Shown piece by piece: positions 3,393 to 27,958 of a DNA stretch of 29,112 nucleotides. The translations under genes were made by a program, and so were the position numbers. The stretch is from a virus. The notes under the pieces were generated by a model. That model did no database searches, was not told where the DNA came from, and was given only the letters and a program-made list of their open reading frames with translations. How positions within the stretch are numbered: position 1 is the stretch's first letter; the number at the start of each line of letters is the position of its first letter. The stretch covers positions 1 to 29,112 of the IMG/VR virus record IMGVR_UViG_3300032116_000997; one strand, 5' to 3'.

Positions 3393-5438
3393 ATGCCACT
3401 CCAAAAACTACAATTTAAGCCAGGTTTAAACAGGGATCAAACTAACTACACCAACGAAGGTGGGTTCTTTGAGTGCAATAAAGTGCGCTTTCGTTCTGGT
3501 TATCCTCAAAAGATTGGCGGCTGGCTTCGTTACGGTACCTCTACTGTAGCTGGCATCTGTCGGCAGGTATTTAACTGGATTACCACGGCTTCAGATAACT
3601 ACTTAGCCCTAGGAACATCAAAAAAACTTTATATTGAGGCAGGACAGACTTTATACGACATCACGCCTATACAAGCTACTTTTGTTTCTCCAGCAACAAA
3701 TAACTGCTTTACCACTGTAAACGGGTCTAAAACCGTCACTGTGACTATAACGGCTCACGGAGCTTCAGATGGAGATTACGTTACTTTTTCGGGTGCGGTA
3801 GCAGTAGGCGGAATCTTAGCGGTTACTCTAAATACAGAGTTTATTGTTGATCAAGTAACGTCAAGCACCTTTACGATTACCGCTGCGACTGCGGCTACGT
3901 CTTCTACTTCTGGAGGCGGTACTGGAATTACAGCCGCTATTCAAATACCTATTGGTAACAACAATGCTTCGGCAGGATATGGCTGGAGTGCGGGCACATG
4001 GAGCCGTTTGTCTTGGGGTTCTGGTAATCCTACACCTGTAGTCAACCCTCAGCGGGACTGGTTCTTGCAGAACTTTGATAACGACCTTGTGGCTAATATT
4101 CGTAATGGCGCAATTTACTATTGGCAATATTCAGGTGGTGTGGGAGTTAGAGCTACTTTACTTTCTGCAACGACTATAGACAGCGTAGCCCCAGCAGACG
4201 TTCCTACGCAGGCAATGCAGGTTCTAGTCTCCCAGAACGATAAACATCTTATTTGTTTTGGTGCTACCCCTTATGGGGGAGGATCATTTGACCCCCTATT
4301 AATCCGCTGGGCTACCCAAGATCAGCCTAATGTCTGGACACCTTTAGTCACTAATTCGGCAGGTTTTATACGGGTTTCCCGTGGTTCAGCCATTGTCTGT
4401 GCGGTAGCAACTCGTCAAGAAATCCTTGTATATACAGAGGGAACCTTAAATTCTCTCCAGTTCGTAGGCACCACAGACGTCTTTAGTCTTAATGAGCTTT
4501 CGGACAATATTTCTATTATTGGTCCTCGTGCTGTCGTAGCCGTTAATAACACCGCCTATTGGATGGGGCATGATAAGTTCTATGCCTACACAGGACGGGT
4601 TGAAACTTTGCCTTGTACCCTAAGAAACCACGTTTTTCAAAACTTTAACTACGACCAAGCCGACCAAGTTATTTCAGGAACTAATGAAGGCTGGAACGAG
4701 GTCTGGTGGTTCTATCCAACGGCAACTAGTCAAGTCAATGACGCCTATGTTATTTACAACCATTTAGAGAAGATTTGGTACTACGGCACAATAGATCGTA
4801 CTGCGTGGTCGGACTCGTCTTTAAGGGAATACCCTCAAGCGCTTACAGGAACCTACGTTACAGGTTCTATTACCTCTACGACTTTAACAGTCACTGCGGT
4901 CTCGGTAGGCATTTTACAAGTAGGTTCAGTCATTACTGGCACAGGCATTTCTGTAGGAACCACAATAACGGCTCTAGGCACTGGCACTGGCGGGATTGGA
5001 ACTTACACCGTTAATATCTCTCAAAGTGTCGTATCAACTGCTATAACGGCTGATAGTATTATTTACAACCACGAAGAAGGACTGAATGACGGCACGGATG
5101 CGATGACCTCGTTTATTGCGTCTTCGGACTTTGACCTAGTAGACGGAGATCAGTTTATCTTGACCAAACGGATTATCCCTGACCTCAATTTTGCTGGATC
5201 GACTGCCGCCCTACCTGCGGTCACAATGTACATAAAACCACGGAACTTCCCTGGCAATGCCTATTCCAACGTAGATTCTGAACAAGTCATCGAGACCTCG
5301 GTAGACGTCTATACCGAACAGATCTTTATGAGGGCTAGGGCACGGCAGATGGCAATCGAGATTGAATCAACCGATTTAGATGTCCAATGGCAGTTAGGTA
5401 GTCCAAGATTGGATGGTAGACCAGATGGGCGCAGATAA
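3393..5438 (+). CDS. tail hub / DNA-stabilisation-type structural protein with inserted beta modules
   Basis: A 681-aa protein; start chosen at the ATG two bases after the endolysin stop (the frame is open further upstream). The N-terminus ([20 protein letters not shown], then [15 protein letters not shown]) is a recurring start of podoviral tail or stabilisation proteins. The middle (roughly 200-480) has repeated aromatic beta motifs ([27 protein letters not shown]) suggestive of a propeller-like fold. Two Thr/Ser/Gly-rich modules look inserted: residues about 97-185 and about 485-552, the latter with a [15 protein letters not shown] motif seen in many phage structural genes. It probably plugs or extends the portal; that is inference from family resemblance. 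Confidence 0.7.
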
Positions 5439-5734
5439 TGGGAATGCAACGATTTCGGGCGCCAGCTCTTCCGCTTGCAACACCAGATTACGACCAACAG
5501 CAACTGTCTCAGTTAATCGGGGTTTTACGGCTTTACTTTACCCAGTTAGACTCCAACGTGCCTTTACAGGCAGACGGGATCAGGCTATTAAATCTACCAA
5601 CATCAGGGTACAATTTGCCAAACGGCACTGTATTTCAGGTTGGGGAAGACTTAAGGATTGTAGTACCTAATATTTCTTATCTATTTGGAGTATCTGCCAC
5701 AGCTAGTGTGGGGACGGTAACGGTAACAGTATGA
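5438..5734 (+). CDS. small virion-associated protein
   Basis: A 98-aa protein whose ATG overlaps the upstream stop (TAATG). Pattern: a short N-terminal arm (RAPALPLATPDYD), a helix (QQQLSQLIGVLRLYFTQLDS) and a C-terminal beta half ending in VGTVTVTV. A protein with this helix-then-beta pattern recurs beside the hub-type gene in environmental phages, so it is probably a structural adaptor; its exact role is unknown to me. The C-terminal beta strands resemble the inserted Thr/Val-rich modules in the preceding protein. Confidence 0.65.
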   Translation: MGMQRFRAPALPLATPDYDQQQLSQLIGVLRLYFTQLDSNVPLQADGIRLLNLPTSGYNLPNGTVFQVGEDLRIVVPNISYLFGVSATASVGTVTVTV

Positions 5735-10153: not shown

Positions 10154-13100
10154 ATGGCATATGACGTCGAAGGTGCAAGGAAAGCAGGTCTTAGCGATGC
10201 TGAGATTAATAACTACCTTGCCAACAAATACAAATACAACCTAGCAGGTGCTAGGGAAGCGGGTCTTGCTGATACCGATATATTGACTCATCTGATTACA
10301 AAAGATAAACCTGTAGCTAAAGCAGTTGCCCCTACAGTAGCAACAACAGAAGTCACCCCTATAAGCAGCCCTGAAGAAGTAACTTCACAAATGGAAACCC
10401 CTAGAGGGGCATTTGCAGCGCAGCCAGGTGCGGGTCTAACTGAGCAACAAAAGAAACAACTAGCAGACGCAACCGCAAAGTACGAAGCGGAAGTGCCATT
10501 CCTGCAGCGGCAGACTGATCCAATAAAAGCAGGGGTCAAAGGGTTAGCAACTGTTGTTCCAAACTTAGAAATTACTAGTCTTCAAAAAGAAATTAATGCA
10601 ATACGAGAAGGCAAGGTTGGTCCACGGGATCCACTAACTGGAGAGATGACCCCTCTTCAACCAGAAGAAGCTGAAGCCGCAATTAAATCATTGCAGGCAC
10701 GGCAAGCAGAAGCACAAAAGAAAGTAATGGGCGTTCAAACAGAAATTAGTAAAATTAAAAAAAGACCAGCCGTTGAACTATTAAATGATGTAACAACTGC
10801 ACGGCAAGCATTCCAAGCATTCCAAGCTGATCCTTTAGGGGTTATGGCTAGTGTATCTTTAGAAAGCTTGCCACAGGTTGCTCCTGCTCTTGTACTAGGT
10901 GCTATAACACGTAACCCTACTGTGGGTGCGTTGGCTATGGGTAGTACTAGCTTTGCTAGTGAGTTGTCTTCTGGGGTTATGGAGTACTTTCAAGATAACG
11001 GAATTAATACTGGAGACCCTATAGCGGTTAACAAAGCATTAAACGATCCTACACTATTTGCTAAAGCGTATGAACATGCTTTAGCACGGGGTTCTATTAT
11101 TGCCATTGCAGATACCGCCGCTGCTGGTTTGGCTAGCAAAATGCTTGTACCTAAAGGGGTAATAAAAAATCAATTTGCAAAAGAAGCAGTCAATATTGGG
11201 GTGGCCCAACCTGTTGCGCAAATGGTTAGTGGTGCTGGCGGTGAAATACTTGCACAGCTTGCTACTGAAGGTGAGGTTAAAAAACCTGGTCGAGCAGTTT
11301 TAGAAGCTGCGGGTGAAGGTCCATCTAGCTTATTAGAGACAGGAGCATTTGGCGGGCAACAAGCCTATGAACGCTTACCATCTACCATTGCAAAAAGAGA
11401 AGCGGAAGCTAAATCTGTTGAAGATCAAAAGAAAATACTTGATAAGCTCAATGCACCTGGGGCTATGGATGCTTTGGGGCAACAGTTTAACGATGAAGTT
11501 GAAAGATTAAAGAATACAATAAACCCTAAAACACAAAAGAAAGGGTCAGCTGGACGTCTTTATACTGAAGAAGAAGCTTTTGCCCTTGCTGGTGATGCCA
11601 TACTGCAGGAAGGTGGACTAGATGGACTTGAATCAATTATCGGTGGAGCAAATAAACCAGGCGTTTCTGTGCCTAGCGGAACAAGCGGAACCGACACAGG
11701 AACTACGGACACTACCCAAGGAAACTTGGCAGCAACTGGCACGACTACTACTGCTACTGGAAGCGGAGAAGGAACTGAACTCAATACACTAGTTGCTGAA
11801 CTAAAAGCTAAGTATCCACAAATGACGGATGAGCAAGTAACTGCTCTTGCCACAGAAAGCCTACGTCAAAAACAAATGGCGGCTGATACGGGTGCACCTG
11901 CTGCGCTTACTGAAGAAAACAAACCCAATGTATTAGATACAGGTTTTGTCTGGAGAAAAGATGGTGTTGATATACCTATTCAAGTTGTAGCAGAAAGACT
12001 TGCATCTGATAGCGGGGAAAGAGAAGTTGTTGCATTGGTTGACGGTGAAGAAGTAAATATCCCAATTAGCCAAATTGCTCGTAGCCCAGACTTTAAATCA
12101 ACAACACCCCCAGTTAAAATTGGTAAGCCAAGAGGTAGACCAAAAGCGGACAAGACTCCAGAGCAAATAGCTGCTGCTGCTGAATATCGCAAACAACGTC
12201 AGGATATAGGTAAAAATGCTATTACTGAAGTTACTAAAGCTGAGAAGGTTCTAAACAGAGTAGTTGATGAGCAAGCCATTATTGAGAATTCTGGCACTGA
12301 GAAAGAAGCTCAGGATACTTTGTTTGGTCTAAGAGAAGAACGCATAGGCGCTCTTGCAGTTGCGCATGGTTTAGCTACAAATCCAGACCAAAAGAATAAA
12401 ACTGCGGGTAAAAGAGCTACTACCCTATTAGAAAAAGCTGATCCTCAAGAACGTGAGCTTGGTAAACAAAGACACGAAGCCAAGCAAAAATTGGGCACAC
12501 CTAGCCGTTCTGAAATTATTGAGTCCACTAATGGACAAGACAACGCAGCGTTTGAAAAGTTTTCTTTTGCTAAAGGTGCAGTTAATTACATAGCTAACTC
12601 AAAAAGTAGCAACGCATTTGAAAAAGTGCTAGCTAAGCGTCTTGCGCCGTTTCTTAATGGGGTTAAGTTTGTCATAGTAGACAGCGAGGCAGATATGCCT
12701 ACTCCTAAACTACAAAGGTTTATGAAAGACTCAGCAGGTCTTTTTGATCCCGAGACAAACACTATTTACGTACTGCGTAAAGGCGGTATCAACAATACTG
12801 TTGTGTTACACGAGGCTTTGCATGCTGCAACGGTTGCTCGTATTATTGCATTTGATTTTTTAAAAAACGCCAAACGACCCATCCCTGCTGCTTTACGAGT
12901 TCCTGTTCAAGAACTGTACGACACCATGGAGGATGCTAAGAAAATATACGACGAACTTGCTGATGCGGGTATGCTTCCTCCTCAGATGTTAAAAATTCCA
13001 AAAGAAGCATTTACTGACCTTAGAGAATTTGTAGCATATGGTCTGTCTTTACCTTTGATGCAGGACTTTCTCCTATTAGCCCCTGGTGAGTACGCTGGTG

Positions 13101-16100
13101 AAGCCCCTGGGTTTATTAGCAAAATTTTTACTCGATTTGTACAGAGCTTACGTAAGATGTTTAGTATGGGCAAAGAGCATATGTCCGCTTTGCAAGATTT
13201 AATAATTGTTACTGATAAGTTATTAAGTACGCCTGTGACTCCAGAAGAAATTGAACTGAATGAATTACTGGGTGAACCGTCAGCGGCTAAAGCACCTAAG
13301 TCACCCAAAGCACCTAAGCCCCCCAAAGCGCCTAAGCAGTTAAAAACGGTGGAGAACGTACTTAGAAAACTTAGGTTATCTCATAGCAGTACTGACATGA
13401 ATACTTCAATCGGTCAGTTAATGATGCAAACTAGAAATGCTAGTGATGCTATTCGACTAATGAAGGCTGTTTATAGCACTATAAGCGTAGCTAAGTTAAA
13501 GTTTGTAATGCGCGCTTTTGATACAGGGGATATTACCCGCATAGCAGGGGATAAGCTTACCAACCTAAAAGTTATTAACGCTGCTGTAAATGACATGGCT
13601 GGTATGCGTACCCGCATGATTCGTGAGCTATCAGAAAAAGTTCCCGCTTGGATTAACTTTAACCAAAAATATAAAAAGGGTGGCAAAGCATTAGCTGATG
13701 TAATAAATGCAGCTACTCTCTTACAGGTTGACCCTGCTAAATATTCTGATGCGGCAACTGCTATAAAAAATGATCCAAAATTAAAACAAATAGAAAACGA
13801 TATTCTTAACCCGTCTACAGACCCTAAAAGTTTGCCTAGACTTAAAGGTGAAAGAAGTAAACGTACCGAGGCTATAAAACTATTGTATGGGGGTGGGATT
13901 TTAAATAACCCTATTACAGGTGAAAAATTTACTATGCTTGGCTGGGATGCCTTGGGTAAATTTGGAAACGGCGAAGGGCATGCTATATACAAGATGGCTA
14001 GAGATAGCTACAAGCAAACGTTTGACTTGCATGAAAAGCTACTAAAAGAAAAGATTGCATCTTCTAACGTACCTGGAGATATTAATGATGCATCTACTCC
14101 AAAAGGTAAGTTGATTGCGGCTATTACTAAGACCTTCCAAGAAGCCCGATTGTTAGATATTTACTTTCCATTAATGCGTTACGGTAATTTTTTCTATAGT
14201 GTAGGTAAAGGCGCAAGTGGTGAGTTCTATATGTTTGAAAGCGCTACTGCCCGCAATGCTGCTGTTGAAGCCCGTGTTGCTGAACTTAATAAAGCTAGAG
14301 GTACTAATCGTAGCTTAGCTAAAATGATTGAAGATGGGGATATAGACGTTGGCGATGACATACGCAAACTAAGAGAGAAGCATGTTGAGTCTAGCGACAT
14401 GCTTAAAGAAATCTTTGCAATGCTAGATAGCAATAAAATGTCGGATATAGAGGCTGTTAAAGACAATATCTACCAAATGTATCTGATGACCCTACCAGAT
14501 AAGGACATTCGCCGTAAGTTTGTACACCGCCAAGGCAAGACTGGTTTTAGTGCCGATGTAATCCGCAACTTTATTACTAGCCAACATACAGCTGCTAATC
14601 AACTAGCTCGTCTAAGCTACGCAGATAAGATTCGTAACGGCATAGCAGCTGCGTATGCAGAGATAGCACAGAACCCAGACAAGCTAAAGCTATCCGTACT
14701 TATTAGAGAAATTAGCGCTAGAGCGCTTGATGAGATTACACCTAGCGTCCCTGATGACGGCATAGACTGGAATCAAGTTGCGGCAGCAGGTAACAAGTTT
14801 GTGTTCTATTGGTTGCTAACCTCTCCTAAGTCTGCATTAATACAGATGACACAACTACCAATAGTAGGTTTACCAACCCTTGGAGCTGAGTTTGGTGTAG
14901 CAAAAGCAGGTGCAACTGCTCTTAGGTATAGTGCCCTGTGGAATAAATTTAGCACAACTAAAACAGATGACAATGGGAACGTAACTACTAACTGGGGGCA
15001 GCCTTCTATCGGTGACTCTAAGTATGTTACTGAGCACAAAGATCCAGCGTATAGAAAAACGTTAAAAGATGCTTGGAACTTTGCTAACGACAAAGATATA
15101 TTTATGTCTACCTATGCAGGAGATATGACTGCAATGTCTGCAGTTCCTACTGGGCAGTATCACAATGTAGTTAGCAAAGCGACTAGAGGTGTATTTAATT
15201 TTATGGGTGGTGCATTCCACCACGCTGAGCGCATATCTCGTGAGATTATGTTTATGTCATCTTTTGAATTAGCCTATGCTGATTACAAGCAAAAGGGTAT
15301 GGATGATAAAGCTGCTTTCGATGCTGCTACTGAAAAAGCCTTAAGTCTAACGTACGATGCTTTGTTTAATTACACACAGTACAACAAGCCTAGGTTGATG
15401 AAGGGTAGCCCAGGAGCTAAGCTAGCTACACAGTTCTTAACTTACCCATTGCAAATGACATCGTACTTAGTACGTAACTTTTACGGTATGTTGCCGTTTC
15501 TAAATAAAGAGGAAAAAAAAGAAGCAGCAATTAAGTTCTTTGGTACTTTAGGTATGACTGGTTTGTTTGCTGGTGTTACAGGATTTCCTTTATATAGTTT
15601 TATCATGGGTGTAGCAGAAGGCGTACGTGAGTTAATGCGGGATGAAGATGATGAAGACTATGATGAAGATGATGAAGGAAACCCACTTGGTAAACGTAAT
15701 TTAGATTTATGGTTTAGAAATTGGTTTATTCCTACCTATTTTGGTCCCGACAGTAACCTAGCTAGCGTTTTAGGATTGACTGAAGAAGACGCTGCAACCT
15801 TAGCTCGTAGTGTTGAAATGGGCCCACTATCTGCAGTTACAGGTTTAAATCTTGGTGCATCTACTTCGTTAGACGGATTATGGTTTAGAGACGATACTCC
15901 TGGAAATACTTCTAAAGAGGCTTTCCAAAACTTTGTGTTTGGTTTTACTGGTCCTATAGGTAGCATAGGTGTAAACATAGCGGGTGCTTTTGATGACTTT
16001 AATAATGGGCAAATAAATAGAGGCTTTGAAAAACTTTCTCCAGCGTGGCTTAGAGGCAGTTTAACTTCATATAGGCTAAGTAAAGAAGGTGCTACTACCA

Positions 16101-16504
16101 CCAAAGGCGACGAGATTATGGATGCGGAGTTTTATACAACAGGCAAATTAGCTGCGCAAGCTCTAGGGTTTGGAAATACTGAAGTAGCACAAATACAAAA
16201 GTCTAACTTTATGGCTAAACAAATAGTTACAAAGATAGAAAAAGAAAAGGCTACGTTGCTTAATCGTTTAGATATAGCAGTACGTAATGATGACGATGAT
16301 AAAGTTGATTCAATACTAGAACAAGTAGACAAATTTAATACCAAAAACTCTATGTTACCTATCAGCGGTGAAACAATTAATAACTCCTTGCAATCTCGTG
16401 AGGAACGCCGTGGCAAATCGTCCCAAGGCTTATCTGTAACAGATGCACAAGCTCCATTTGTTTATCCTCTAGTAGAGGGTACTCGTTCTGTAGACAAGAG
16501 ATAA
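10154..16504 (+). CDS. giant polyvalent internal virion protein with zincin motif
   Basis: A 2116-aa protein. The N-terminus has two copies of a GAR(K/E)AGL(S/A)D-type repeat (about residues 7-18 and 32-43). A hydrophobic Ala/Gly-rich stretch follows at about 230-270. Residues 886-890 are HEALH in the context NNTVVLHEALHAAT, a zinc-metallopeptidase (HExxH) signature. A Lys/Pro hinge (about 1046-1061) separates this from the C-terminal half, where QMTQLPIVGLPTL, AERISREIMFMSSFELAYAD and LATQFLTYPLQMTSYL resemble the LPD38-type domain of phage polyvalent proteins (my recollection, not verified). A hydrophobic segment (about 1794-1824) precedes an Asp/Glu-rich run. Likely ejected with DNA; the activity is inferred. 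Start is the ATG three bases after the upstream stop. Confidence 0.75.
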   Translation: MAYDVEGARKAGLSDAEINNYLANKYKYNLAGAREAGLADTDILTHLITKDKPVAKAVAPTVATTEVTPISSPEEVTSQMETPRGAFAAQPGAGLTEQQKKQLADATAKYEAEVPFLQRQTDPIKAGVKGLATVVPNLEITSLQKEINAIREGKVGPRDPLTGEMTPLQPEEAEAAIKSLQARQAEAQKKVMGVQTEISKIKKRPAVELLNDVTTARQAFQAFQADPLGVMASVSLESLPQVAPALVLGAITRNPTVGALAMGSTSFASELSSGVMEYFQDNGINTGDPIAVNKALNDPTLFAKAYEHALARGSIIAIADTAAAGLASKMLVPKGVIKNQFAKEAVNIGVAQPVAQMVSGAGGEILAQLATEGEVKKPGRAVLEAAGEGPSSLLETGAFGGQQAYERLPSTIAKREAEAKSVEDQKKILDKLNAPGAMDALGQQFNDEVERLKNTINPKTQKKGSAGRLYTEEEAFALAGDAILQEGGLDGLESIIGGANKPGVSVPSGTSGTDTGTTDTTQGNLAATGTTTTATGSGEGTELNTLVAELKAKYPQMTDEQVTALATESLRQKQMAADTGAPAALTEENKPNVLDTGFVWRKDGVDIPIQVVAERLASDSGEREVVALVDGEEVNIPISQIARSPDFKSTTPPVKIGKPRGRPKADKTPEQIAAAAEYRKQRQDIGKNAITEVTKAEKVLNRVVDEQAIIENSGTEKEAQDTLFGLREERIGALAVAHGLATNPDQKNKTAGKRATTLLEKADPQERELGKQRHEAKQKLGTPSRSEIIESTNGQDNAAFEKFSFAKGAVNYIANSKSSNAFEKVLAKRLAPFLNGVKFVIVDSEADMPTPKLQRFMKDSAGLFDPETNTIYVLRKGGINNTVVLHEALHAATVARIIAFDFLKNAKRPIPAALRVPVQELYDTMEDAKKIYDELADAGMLPPQMLKIPKEAFTDLREFVAYGLSLPLMQDFLLLAPGEYAGEAPGFISKIFTRFVQSLRKMFSMGKEHMSALQDLIIVTDKLLSTPVTPEEIELNELLGEPSAAKAPKSPKAPKPPKAPKQLKTVENVLRKLRLSHSSTDMNTSIGQLMMQTRNASDAIRLMKAVYSTISVAKLKFVMRAFDTGDITRIAGDKLTNLKVINAAVNDMAGMRTRMIRELSEKVPAWINFNQKYKKGGKALADVINAATLLQVDPAKYSDAATAIKNDPKLKQIENDILNPSTDPKSLPRLKGERSKRTEAIKLLYGGGILNNPITGEKFTMLGWDALGKFGNGEGHAIYKMARDSYKQTFDLHEKLLKEKIASSNVPGDINDASTPKGKLIAAITKTFQEARLLDIYFPLMRYGNFFYSVGKGASGEFYMFESATARNAAVEARVAELNKARGTNRSLAKMIEDGDIDVGDDIRKLREKHVESSDMLKEIFAMLDSNKMSDIEAVKDNIYQMYLMTLPDKDIRRKFVHRQGKTGFSADVIRNFITSQHTAANQLARLSYADKIRNGIAAAYAEIAQNPDKLKLSVLIREISARALDEITPSVPDDGIDWNQVAAAGNKFVFYWLLTSPKSALIQMTQLPIVGLPTLGAEFGVAKAGATALRYSALWNKFSTTKTDDNGNVTTNWGQPSIGDSKYVTEHKDPAYRKTLKDAWNFANDKDIFMSTYAGDMTAMSAVPTGQYHNVVSKATRGVFNFMGGAFHHAERISREIMFMSSFELAYADYKQKGMDDKAAFDAATEKALSLTYDALFNYTQYNKPRLMKGSPGAKLATQFLTYPLQMTSYLVRNFYGMLPFLNKEEKKEAAIKFFGTLGMTGLFAGVTGFPLYSFIMGVAEGVRELMRDEDDEDYDEDDEGNPLGKRNLDLWFRNWFIPTYFGPDSNLASVLGLTEEDAATLARSVEMGPLSAVTGLNLGASTSLDGLWFRDDTPGNTSKEAFQNFVFGFTGPIGSIGVNIAGAFDDFNNGQINRGFEKLSPAWLRGSLTSYRLSKEGATTTKGDEIMDAEFYTTGKLAAQALGFGNTEVAQIQKSNFMAKQIVTKIEKEKATLLNRLDIAVRNDDDDKVDSILEQVDKFNTKNSMLPISGETINNSLQSREERRGKSSQGLSVTDAQAPFVYPLVEGTRSVDKR
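13289..13336 (+). repeat. in-frame 18-bp repeats encoding a Lys/Pro hinge
   Basis: Three near-identical units, AAAGCACCTAAG followed by a six-base spacer, repeat every 18 bases (13289, 13307, 13325; the third has one change, and the last unit ends at 13336). They encode KAPK followed by Ser-Pro or Pro-Pro, giving a proline-lysine linker between the zincin-containing half and the C-terminal half of the giant virion protein. Repeat copy number could vary between relatives by slippage. Confidence 0.85.
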
Positions 16505-23966: not shown

Positions 23967-24140
23967 TCATTTTTTATATACCTGCTGTAATTTAATTTCA
24001 ATCTCACCGTTTGCTATTTTTGTTAAATACATTCTTAGAACGGAAGATACAGTCAAACCATTTGCTTTAAATATTTTTTGAGCATCATTAAATACTTTCT
24101 TATCAATCCTAACCCTGACCATTGCATCTAACTGTTTCAT
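23967..24140 (-). CDS. RelB/DinJ-like ribbon-helix-helix protein
   Basis: A 57-aa protein overlapping the upstream lipoprotein gene by ATGA. AMVRVRIDKKVFNDAQKIF (from residue 6) gives the N-terminal strand and first helix, and NGLTVSSVLRMYLTKIANGE gives the second helix with the LTxSxxLRxxL pattern of RelB/DinJ antitoxins and related RHH regulators. No RelE/YafQ-type toxin gene is next to it, so it is either an orphan antitoxin or a DNA-binding regulator of the early operon. The small size and perfect fit into the gap support it as real. Confidence 0.8.
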   Translation of the reverse strand: MKQLDAMVRVRIDKKVFNDAQKIFKANGLTVSSVLRMYLTKIANGEIEIKLQQVYKK

Positions 24141-24394: not shown

Positions 24395-24601
24395 TTAATC
24401 CTCCTTTTTACTACTGTATCTACGTTTAGGTTTAACTGCTGCAATTCCAATCTCGGGTTCTTGTTTATCTTTAGCATCTATCAGGGCATCTGCCATACCC
24501 CAAATCGTTCTTGGATCAACATCTTCATATTTCATAATCATCCCACATGCAATAAACCCTGCAAATAAGATACGCATATGTTCTTTATCTTGATCGTTCA
24601 T
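24395..24601 (-). CDS. small early protein of unknown function
   Basis: A 68-aa protein overlapping the upstream gene by ATGA. A helical N-terminus with a hydrophobic patch (ILFAGFIACGMIM, too short and interrupted to be a sure membrane segment) is followed by DPRTIWGMADALIDAKD and a basic, Lys/Arg-rich end (KPKRRYSSKKED). The WGMADALIDA pattern is typical of small soluble phage proteins. I can assign no activity. Confidence 0.55.
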   Translation of the reverse strand: MNDQDKEHMRILFAGFIACGMIMKYEDVDPRTIWGMADALIDAKDKQEPEIGIAAVKPKRRYSSKKED

Positions 24602-25077
24602 AATTGTTTACTCGGTCTTTTAAGTTTCATTTTGTTTTTAGCAAGCTCTTCTTTTATTTCCTTCAAAGTTAGCTTACCCATATTAGGTATCTTTATTAGT
24701 TCATTTTCTGTCTTGCTAAGTAAGTCTTTTAAAGTAAAAATATTCTCTGCTTTTAAGCAGTTCAAAGCACGTGCGCCTAATTCTAAACTGTTTTCGACGG
24801 CTTCTTTTTTAATTTTTTCTCTTTCATCCCATGCTTTAGCATTCTTTTTTATCTCTTCTTGTTTAAGAATTTCAACTATTTTTGGGTGGCTATTAATTTC
24901 TCTGAGCCTTTCGTAGGCACGTTCAAGATTAGCTTCCGTTCTTTCATACTTAGCTTTATACGCATCGTCTGATTGTTGCTGATTATTAGATAGAGGTACC
25001 TGTACTAAGTCATTACCTGCAAACTTACTAAAGTTCACCATCTCTGCTATTGAATTAAACTCCACGTGAATTTTCAT
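24598..25077 (-). CDS. protein with RNA polymerase alpha-subunit C-terminal domain
   Basis: A 159-aa protein. Residues 1-35 are a short beta-like start (MKIHVEFNSIAEMV); residues 36-96 are a long charged helix or coiled coil. Residues 97-147 match the bacterial RpoA C-terminal domain: LELGARALNCLKAENIFTLK, then SKTENELIKIPNMGK. The segment NCLKAE is identical to E. coli, and the DNA-contact positions R265, N268, N294, G296 and E302 (E. coli numbering) are kept as R103, N106, N132, G134 and E140; K298 is Leu and S299 is Thr. The alpha N-terminal (assembly) domain is absent. It could bind UP-element-like DNA or activators, recruiting or competing with host polymerase. Confidence 0.85.
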   Translation of the reverse strand: MKIHVEFNSIAEMVNFSKFAGNDLVQVPLSNNQQQSDDAYKAKYERTEANLERAYERLREINSHPKIVEILKQEEIKKNAKAWDEREKIKKEAVENSLELGARALNCLKAENIFTLKDLLSKTENELIKIPNMGKLTLKEIKEELAKNKMKLKRPSKQL

Positions 25078-25079
25078 TT

Positions 25080-26126
25080 TTATTTTCCTGTTGTCTGCGT
25101 TAATATTTTAAAAGTACCGTCGGGGTTACGTTCCCTTAAGTGCCAAGGTACTGTAGTTTTCTTTCTTTCGTTACTGTAATGAGCGTCTCTACAAGTTGCA
25201 CAGCAATACATTGCTCTACCCATTGGTGTAGACTGCGTGAACGTTGTATTACACCCCTTACATACACGTTGTGGGCCTGTACCAATAAATATCCTAGCTT
25301 TTTTGCGATGCTCTTTAGCTTCGTTAGATACGTATGATCTTATTGAACTTGACCCTTTCATCTTACGCATGTTTTCTAGTTTATATGGGTTGTGTACTGC
25401 CACACCAACCTTGGCTCTCTTACTCATTGTTTCTGATAAATCTTTTGATACAACACCAGTGCCTTTGTTAAAGCCAGCGGCTCTTTTAAAATCTTTCGCT
25501 TGGATACCATGCGCTATATTCATGTGCGTAGACAAATGTTTGCCTGTCCACTCGCACCCTTCTACTAAACAGTTAAGCGCAAGTCTATTTAGAAAGCCAT
25601 CGTAGCCTTGTGGAAGCGCCATTTTATCGGGGTTAGCTATTTGCCTATCAAAACGCTTATCCATGTACGAGCGATAGCATACTCGAGTGCAAAACTTTTT
25701 AATACCGAGTTGTTTTAGCGGTAAGTAAAAGAATTGTTTGCATTCTAAACACTCAATTTCAGCACCAGTTTTTAACAACATAGCTCTTTTGGCTATTGAC
25801 TCCGCACTGTAAGACTTCTCTCTAGCTAGTCTTGCCATAGCTTTAAACTGATTTGATTTTGTGTAGCAATCTATTCCACAAAACTGCGGATTGTTTCTGC
25901 GTGTAAAGAAAGTATTGTTGCACTGCTTACACACGCTATTTGGTATAGGTTTGCTAAATTTGTTTTTTAAATAAGCATACCTACAAACATTCGAACAAAA
26001 TAAGTTGCTATTTTTATACACGTGATGTTCAGCTTGTTTTTGTGTACCAACAAACATAGCTTTGCAATGAGCGCAAACTAATTTGTCTTTGATTGAAGTA
26101 GCGTACGCACGTTTACTTGTTTTCAT
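25080..26126 (-). CDS. multi-zinc-finger protein with Ros/MucR-like finger
   Basis: A 348-aa protein; the ATG at 26126 overlaps the polymerase stop (TAATG) and is preferred over one two codons upstream. Four CxxC...CxxxC knuckles (C18/C21/C44/C48; C66/C69/C83/C87; C126/C129/C146/C150; C289/C292/C308/C312) alternate with basic linkers, like duplicated treble-clef fingers. Between the third and fourth lies a C2H2 finger with the Ros/MucR layout: CLVEGCEWTGKHLSTHMNIAH (C186, C191, H201, H206) followed by KDFKRAAGF. MucR proteins bind AT-rich promoters. It is probably a DNA-binding protein; an HNH-like nuclease role for the treble clefs cannot be excluded. Confidence 0.7.
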   Translation of the reverse strand: MKTSKRAYATSIKDKLVCAHCKAMFVGTQKQAEHHVYKNSNLFCSNVCRYAYLKNKFSKPIPNSVCKQCNNTFFTRRNNPQFCGIDCYTKSNQFKAMARLAREKSYSAESIAKRAMLLKTGAEIECLECKQFFYLPLKQLGIKKFCTRVCYRSYMDKRFDRQIANPDKMALPQGYDGFLNRLALNCLVEGCEWTGKHLSTHMNIAHGIQAKDFKRAAGFNKGTGVVSKDLSETMSKRAKVGVAVHNPYKLENMRKMKGSSSIRSYVSNEAKEHRKKARIFIGTGPQRVCKGCNTTFTQSTPMGRAMYCCATCRDAHYSNERKKTTVPWHLRERNPDGTFKILTQTTGK

Positions 26127-27958
26127 TAGCATTCACCATAACTTTTACCCACACCTGATTCACAATTTAACGGCAACTCCTGTGCCCACTTAGGTCGCAT
26201 CCGCATGCACATCTCAACATACTCTTGCCCTGTCTGCGCTTCTTGCTCAGGTATTACACAAGCAATCGCATCATGCACAGTCATTACCACTTTGTACTTC
26301 TTAGCCACCTGCAACATCTGCTCACCAATAATAATTCGAGCTAACGCTTGGCAGACATTCTCAATAACCTTCCCACCATATATCCTGTTAGGGACAACGG
26401 CTTTACCTTTTTTAGTGTCGTACACATACTCGTCTTTACCTTGCTCATTGCGTATCTTGCGTAGGTTGGGGTACTTTACATACAGTCCGTTTGGTAAACG
26501 AATACCTTTAGTGCCCTCAACAACTAATATTCCATTACGACCTAACGTAGTAGTTTGATTAGCAAACATCGCATCTAAAGCTACTCCCGCTTGCCTCCAA
26601 AGTTGAGGTATCCAGTCATAAGTCTCCCGATAGACTTTGATAATACGATTGGCTTCCCCATCCTCAATTTCCACATTGAAAGTTTTGAGTTGCGCTTTGA
26701 ATTTCGCACTCCCCATGCCGTAGCCACATCCCAATATTGTTGTCTTACCGACGAATCTCTCATCTTTGCTAATTTCTTCTTGCGCCTTAACATAGATAGA
26801 CGATGCCATGATTTTGTATACATCCTCACCTCTTTCAAATGCGTCAACCAAATCGTTCTGTTCAGCGAGCCACGCTAAGGTTCTTGCTTCTATTTGGCTA
26901 GAGTCAGAGTCCACAATCACCGATCCAGGCGGAGCCATAATCGCATCCTTAAGTCTGCTTTGTCTTGGCAAGTTTTGTAAGTTTACTTTGTCGTCACCAC
27001 CCCAACGACCTGTATGAGCCGCATAGTAGCGTAGTGGTATGGGAAATAAGCCTCGCTGCGCTATCTCAATAAAACGTTCAGTCCTTGTTTCTTCAAGCGT
27101 GGACTTTACTCCAAGTCGTGAGCAAGCTAGTAACTGAACCGATTCTTCTTCGTGTTCAAGCAAAGCTTTAAAGCCTTCGTCTGTCTTAGCAAATGCCCAA
27201 GTTTCTTTTCCTGTTGCTGGACTTATTTTAGTGGGGGGAGTTACACCAAGAGAATTTAGAAGTTGAGCAAACTTGTCGTTGCTCATCAAATCTTCCTTCA
27301 TGTATTTGTTTAAGTACACTTCTTTTGCCCTACGAACACTACCTAAATGGTCATGTAACATATTGCCATCAAGCCATAGGCTAGGTTCAGAGAACATACG
27401 GATGGTCAGGTCAATAAGCCGTAGCTCAATAGGAGGAAAGCCTGCACTTAGTTGCTCAAACAAAGCCATCGTAAGCACCACATCGTTCTTGCAGTACTCA
27501 CCGTACTGTGCCAAGTCTTGTGTATTAAAGTCAATCCGACGCTTGCCTAAAGCATTAAGCACCTCTGTGCCTTTTACTCCTAGCCCATAGTGTTCGGCTA
27601 ACTTAGCTAGGCTACCGCCAACTTCCGTGCCGTGTATTGCTCTTGCCATAGATAAAGTATCAGCAATACCCTTGGGCTTTATATCAAACTGCCAGTTAAG
27701 GATAGCCATGTCAAACATAGCGTTATGGGCTACCACGAGATGCTTATCGAGTTTATATTTATCCAACACAGTCTTTAAGTATGCTCTAGTACCACTATAC
27801 CAATGCGGTTCCCCACCATCTTCTTGTCTTGAGAGGCATTGGATAGCAAACCCAATCGTCTCAAACTCATCAGACCGAATGTATTCCTCTGTAGTCATTT
27901 TGCTAAGGGAGTAGGTTTGAGAGTAGTAAGTCTCAAAGTCCAAACAAAAGATTTTCAA
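26126..27958 (-). CDS. family A DNA polymerase with 3'-5' exonuclease
   Basis: A 610-aa protein starting at TTG (27958), which overlaps the previous stop as TTGA. Exonuclease: DFET (D7, E9), HNAMFDM (N79, D83), YCKND (Y155, D159). Polymerase: TGRWGGDDKVNLQNLPR (316-332), motif A DSSQIEAR (D352-R359), motif B R401-K405-L409-Y413, motif C TVHDAIA (H562, D563, A564). There is no 5'-3' nuclease domain, as usual for phage enzymes. Position 762 of E. coli Pol I corresponds to Leu409, and the acidic residue after the motif C Asp is Ala. It replicates the phage genome with the primase-helicase at 16.8-19.6 kb. Confidence 0.95.
   Translation of the reverse strand: MKIFCLDFETYYSQTYSLSKMTTEEYIRSDEFETIGFAIQCLSRQEDGGEPHWYSGTRAYLKTVLDKYKLDKHLVVAHNAMFDMAILNWQFDIKPKGIADTLSMARAIHGTEVGGSLAKLAEHYGLGVKGTEVLNALGKRRIDFNTQDLAQYGEYCKNDVVLTMALFEQLSAGFPPIELRLIDLTIRMFSEPSLWLDGNMLHDHLGSVRRAKEVYLNKYMKEDLMSNDKFAQLLNSLGVTPPTKISPATGKETWAFAKTDEGFKALLEHEEESVQLLACSRLGVKSTLEETRTERFIEIAQRGLFPIPLRYYAAHTGRWGGDDKVNLQNLPRQSRLKDAIMAPPGSVIVDSDSSQIEARTLAWLAEQNDLVDAFERGEDVYKIMASSIYVKAQEEISKDERFVGKTTILGCGYGMGSAKFKAQLKTFNVEIEDGEANRIIKVYRETYDWIPQLWRQAGVALDAMFANQTTTLGRNGILVVEGTKGIRLPNGLYVKYPNLRKIRNEQGKDEYVYDTKKGKAVVPNRIYGGKVIENVCQALARIIIGEQMLQVAKKYKVVMTVHDAIACVIPEQEAQTGQEYVEMCMRMRPKWAQELPLNCESGVGKSYGEC

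Follow-up and report, generated by a model that had tools for sequence, protein, structure and literature searches.

Analysis of the window, the whole 29,112-nt stretch studied here (IMG/VR virus record IMGVR_UViG_3300032116_000997), raised the question of what use a phage might have for a detached piece of bacterial RNA polymerase. The piece lies in a 159-aa protein encoded on the minus strand, and the plus strand of the same interval is packed with stop codons.

24598..25077, minus strand: 159-aa phage protein (open frame; full-length relatives in IMG/VR with 45-100% identity; dN/dS well below 1)
24622..24792, minus strand: alpha-subunit C-terminal domain of RpoA (alpha-CTD), residues 96-152 (PF03118, AF2 and Foldseek)

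Purifying selection acts on this gene, which is real and belongs to the accessory genes of a single uncultured phage lineage; it lies 3' of the phage DNA polymerase gene. The deduced protein consists of a conserved N-terminal segment, a long helix and the alpha-CTD, in this order. The label "early" attached to it in the original prediction is a reading of its position only.

The C-terminal domain is an RpoA alpha-CTD

Searching Pfam with the 159-aa protein revealed a match of residues 96 to 146 to RNA_pol_A_CTD (PF03118) with 64 bits (E=1e-17), 40 bits over the curated cut-off of 23.8 bits. The helix-hairpin-helix (HhH) profile HHH_5 reached 25.4 bits (2e-5), which is under its own 27-bit cut-off and far under the alpha-CTD score. 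RpoA models ranked first in the NCBIfam search. In the PDB search, the best match was RpoA (4e-12), and every match to E=0.0024 was an RNA polymerase alpha subunit. The AlphaFold2 model had a pLDDT of about 88 across the domain and the expected order of four helices. Superposition by Foldseek gave an rmsd of 0.5-0.6 to 8y5t and 1lb2_E; the matches listed were alpha-CTDs or alpha-containing polymerase structures, and the top ones were all alpha-CTDs. These results confirm residues 96-152 as a genuine alpha-CTD of the RpoA type, as had been predicted for the last ~60 residues. Neither a generic HhH profile outscoring the RpoA CTD nor a missing CTD fold, the two outcomes named beforehand as speaking against this assignment, was observed. 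The absence of the alpha assembly domain was likewise predicted correctly. Pfam gave no match to any alpha N-terminal assembly/dimerisation domain, and full-length RpoA models scored only 60.8 bits, with cut-offs of at least 228.

Comparison of the DNA-contact residues with those of E. coli RpoA revealed that R265, N268, C269, N294, G296 and E302 are kept in the window protein (as R103, N106, C107, N132, G134 and E140), whereas K298 is changed to Leu (L136) and S299 to Thr (T137). The identity of the NCLKAE stretch to E. coli, the retention of R265, N268, N294, G296 and E302 and the K298 exchange had all been stated in the original prediction and agree with the residue alignment; the S299 exchange had not been mentioned. 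Apart from K298L and S299T, which are common to the whole window subgroup, the 265 determinant of the window protein is identical (6 of 8 residues), with fewer identical residues in the relatives L007-L009. E302 is lost in L004 and L005, and N294, G296 and E302 are all lost in L007-L009, so DNA binding may not hold across the family. R265 was present in all 13 sampled phage or prophage alpha-CTDs, and N268, N294 and G296 in 12 of them. Since R265 of RpoA is a DNA contact, its invariance in the phage copies argues, at the level of sequence, that DNA binding may often be retained. Regarding the surfaces for protein partners, T285 and E286 of the 287 determinant are retained in most phage copies, and the TENEL motif of the window protein is the same as in beta-proteobacterial RpoA; D259 of the 261 determinant is not retained.

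In summary, the domain resembles the bacterial RpoA CTD (PF03118) in its fold, most DNA-contact residues, the NCLKAEN motif and the TENEL stretch. It differs from bacterial RpoA in being phage encoded, in the lack of the alpha assembly domain, in the K298L and S299T exchanges and in its other N-terminal arm.

Conserved N-terminal segment and diverging alpha-CTD

The part of the protein in front of the alpha-CTD comprises two features.

25000..25077, minus strand: near-invariant residues 1-26, MKIHVEFNSIAEMVNFSKFAGNDLVQ (100% amino-acid identity to L007 at dS 1.14)
24889..24987, minus strand: long predicted helix, possible coiled coil, residues 31-63 (AF2; 7-residue indel; weak heptad signal)

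IMG/VR yielded nine full-length relatives, one of them (L001) on a near-identical contig; they range in identity from 100% to 45% and score 29-63 bits against PF03118. Three of them (L007-L009) carry a diverged CTD that is still above the Pfam cut-off. The L007 version is predicted to retain the alpha-CTD fold (Foldseek rmsd of 1.0 or less over 54-55 columns, with alpha-CTDs as top matches). The window and L007 CTDs are only 42% identical (dN 0.57), compared with 84% (dN 0.12) for the neighboring polymerases, and the first 26 residues are identical. The N-terminal segment therefore looks constant and the alpha-CTD variable. Residues 1-26 showed a dN of 0.00-0.05 at a dS of about 1.1-1.6 in every pair except the closest. 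The CTD evolves much faster than the polymerase among the more distant relatives, and its dN/dS of about 0.2-0.4 in closer pairs indicates purifying selection. A homolog of residues 1-26 lacking an alpha-CTD was looked for, and none was found.

The helix region of the relatives differs in length by exactly 7 residues, and the heptad statistic was weak (shuffle p of 0.09 for the window protein and 0.03 for the relatives over a longer stretch). The coiled-coil-like N-terminus of the original prediction thus agrees with the long AlphaFold2 helix and the indel but finds little backing in the heptad statistic. Based on these three features, dimerisation of the 159-aa protein is probable.

The nearest bacterial RpoA proteins were beta/gamma-proteobacterial, with about 54% identity, in a list whose bias stems from scanning the genomes for the exact NCLKAENI stretch. 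In a 57-column tree, the window family formed a group (92/83) with the alpha-CTDs of L026 and L203, next to the beta/gamma RpoA rows. With respect to clustering with one bacterial host group, which the original prediction had proposed to examine, most forks of this tree were unresolved and accommodate a single as well as a multiple origin.

The residue pattern and the rates of change bear on the explanation that the free alpha-CTD is a decoy which ties up UP-element DNA, sigma region 4 or activators of the host and shuts off host genes with no recruitment to phage promoters. The retained T285 and E286, the beta-proteobacterial TENEL motif and the lack of a visible link to core polymerase in the sequence would agree with such a decoy, and a CTD that diverges fast relative to the polymerase would fit the tracking of variable host partners. 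However, it is not obvious why a decoy would require 26 N-terminal residues that hardly vary, and D259 is not kept. This explanation is considered unlikely.

The gene lies in a variable slot behind a phage DNA polymerase

Analysis of the genomic localization revealed the following neighbors.

26126..27958, minus strand: family A DNA polymerase, anchor upstream of the slot (DNA_pol_A 1.8e-32; synteny in 7 records)
25080..26132, minus strand: 350-aa zinc-finger/HNH-like gene (PHROG HNH endonuclease 1.8e-10)
24395..24601, minus strand: 68-aa gene that bounds the variable slot on its 3' side (found downstream of it in relatives)

The gene order polymerase, alpha-CTD protein, small genes, exonuclease, helicase and primase is common to 7 records, and in the relatives, the polymerase stop codon precedes or overlaps the start codon of the alpha-CTD gene. 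Only in the window and the near-identical contig are the two genes split by the 350-aa gene, which is absent from the other relatives and is homing-endonuclease-like. Two further observations concern the window. A 57-aa RelB-like antitoxin (positions 23967-24140; PF04221, 8e-8) with no obvious toxin partner is confined, among the records compared, to the window and the near-identical contig, and an LPD39 polyvalent-protein domain is part of the 2,116-aa protein encoded at 10154-16504. A T7-type or single-subunit RNA polymerase was not found in the 7 partial records by a family search in which no positive control rang; the host polymerase is presumably used.

The slot was surveyed by collecting relatives of the polymerase and inspecting what lies behind this gene in each of them. 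In sister phages with polymerases 83-87% identical, the alpha-CTD gene is altogether missing. In L129, a 201-aa protein encoded directly behind the polymerase (5045-5647) carries a host-like sigma70 region 4 at its C terminus (Sigma70_r4 in Pfam, E=1.6e-18; RpoD in PDB, 8e-21). The same sequence is present in L271. L272 encodes a protein 84% identical to that of L129 (4001-4597; Sigma70_r4, E=2.3e-15), whose gene lies behind inserted genes and directly before a 65-aa homolog of the 68-aa gene of the window. An 81-aa gene of L139 showed weak region 4 similarity under the cut-off. The alpha-CTD is absent from the L129, L271, L272 and L139 records, and in the wider lineage, where the domain is rare, it was found in 0 of 10 further records tested. 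Since there are only two distinct strong region 4 sequences, mutual exclusion with the alpha-CTD is suggestive only. Elsewhere in several records, some of them with an alpha-CTD, there are short Sigma70_r4 matches (about 60-90 aa, mostly partial) that look like small HTH proteins.

The L129/L271 and L272 proteins resemble the window protein in being small phage proteins encoded in the polymerase-exonuclease interval with a C-terminal promoter-recognition domain; they differ in having sigma region 4 in place of the alpha-CTD, and the N-termini are unrelated. Possibly, and we propose this tentatively, the locus beside the DNA polymerase of this lineage captures host-derived promoter-recognition domains (alpha-CTD or sigma70 region 4) on phage arms and exchanges them between relatives, a plug-in redirection of host RNA polymerase by domain mimicry. 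As unrelated genes occupy the slot as well, chance may account for part of the co-location of alpha-CTD and sigma region 4 genes.

This other cargo includes methyltransferase, glycosyltransferase-like and nuclease-like genes and 334-411 aa proteins of unknown function. Such diversity would suit a hypervariable accessory site whose role lies in conflict between phage and bacterium, or between phages, and not in promoter choice, and BREX PglW models are similar to the CTD. This similarity is weak (1.7e-6 to 7e-5) and limited to the alpha-CTD and its surroundings in the C-terminal half, and no defense partner genes were seen; a conflict role is regarded as highly improbable. Membership in BREX PglW or a defense system was rejected, as the PglW kinase has ~1,400 aa compared with 159 aa here and only a short stretch is similar. 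Independently of this, the matches of PglW models to the alpha-CTD stretch (7e-5 in NCBIfam, 1.7e-6 in PADLOC) suggest that PglW may hold an alpha-CTD-like HhH domain.

The position next to the polymerase may point to a role in replication instead. Because of this neighborhood, the main rival is a replication accessory protein whose alpha-CTD serves only as a generic HhH minor-groove module and anchors the DNA polymerase, or some other replication factor, on phage DNA, with no involvement of host RNA polymerase. HhH folds are generic non-specific DNA binders. Consistent with tethering, alpha-CTD genes lie beside a family A polymerase in three architectures, and the sequence-divergent L007 version keeps the fold and loses specific contacts. 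However, the polymerases that are 83-87% identical do without the alpha-CTD gene and so do not need it, the host-like sigma region 4 as slot alternative points to transcription, and generic HhH profiles score far under the alpha-CTD. A replication tether is therefore held to be rather doubtful.

Alpha-CTDs on other phage proteins

A profile search over viral loci, complemented by Pfam, revealed further non-RpoA alpha-CTDs above the Pfam cut-off on unrelated N-termini (L024, L026, L203, L025, L027, L029 and L127). The alpha-CTD genes of L024 and L026 are positioned directly upstream of a related polymerase, and that of L203 is downstream of one; alpha-CTDs on another N-terminus thus occur beside the polymerase in two lineages. 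The faecal scaffold L127 (1856-2851) combines HTH_17, Sigma70_r4 (9e-6) and an alpha-CTD (2e-14) in a single chain. Within 50,697 annotated phage records, Ruegeria phage vB_RpoS-V16 (L126, NC_052969 gp23; PF03118, 1.2e-10 near the N-terminus; annotated pyrophosphatase) was the only cultivated phage, among the records opened, confirmed to carry a non-RpoA alpha-CTD. All these proteins resemble the window protein in placing an alpha-CTD in a non-RpoA frame.

Several other matches were rejected. Those in Salmonella and Acinetobacter phage records are annotated rpoA, and two faecal "Bacteriophage sp." records (L124 and L125) encode full-length RpoA and represent host DNA. A plasmid match in a C. 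difficile record lies on a ribosomal-operon contig with ordinary rpoA, and the other plasmid matches listed are mostly annotated rpoA or chromosome sized. A sigma region 4 in L025 received no support from Pfam. No alpha-CTD was found in the polymerase neighborhoods of Rhizobium phage TM3_14A, KPP25 and Rollin. Among 249 sampled proteobacterial genomes, the alpha-CTD is usually single and corresponds to rpoA, with a minority having extra matches; two to five PF03118 matches were present in G098, G118, G134, G174, G194 and others. No published account of phage-encoded alpha-CTD fusions was found in the open literature, a scope that excludes subscription journals and preprints, and PF03118 together with "phage" retrieved no paper there.

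Proposed role in host transcription

The function put forward in the original prediction, in which the 159-aa protein would steer host RNA polymerase towards phage UP elements or titrate activators, is plausible. It gains support from the recurrence of the alpha-CTD beside phage polymerases and from sigma70 region 4 in the sister-phage slot. The presence of diverged alpha-CTD versions, or of a host sigma piece in the same neighborhood, among the relatives suggests that the locus manipulates host transcription. We give slightly better than even chances to the reading that the protein is a modulator of host transcription, in which a detached host-derived alpha-CTD on a phage arm alters promoter choice in favor of the phage. 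The exchanged or lost DNA-contact residues and the rarity of the domain in the wider lineage speak against this reading. The host-derived domain would have lost its connection to the assembly domain and would now be carried by a long helix and a short N-terminal segment specific to the phage. A probable dimer would then display the alpha-CTDs, which may bind A/T-rich, UP-element-like minor-groove DNA, their usual partners (sigma region 4 and activators) or both, and the near-invariant residues 1-26 would contact a constant partner. Through contact of the protein with host RNA polymerase, promoter choice would be shifted to the benefit of the phage; the features observed would agree with recruitment as well as with a decoy.

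Phages are known to modify, cleave or block the alpha and sigma subunits of host RNA polymerase, and T4 Alt, ModA, AsiA and MotA act on the host alpha-CTD or sigma region 4. The same holds for Rac of phiKMV-like phages (PMC7552054) and P7 of Xp10 (PMC3985653). The window protein would target the same part of host RNA polymerase as Rac, P7 and the T4 proteins; unlike these, which modify, cleave or bind alpha or sigma, it is itself a copy of the domain. By carrying the polymerase's own promoter-recognition domain in detached form, a phage would follow a different strategy. In addition, the alpha-CTD emerges as a domain employed repeatedly, on several phage proteins, and the natural series of canonical version, diverged version and sigma region 4 replacement constitutes ready comparative material.
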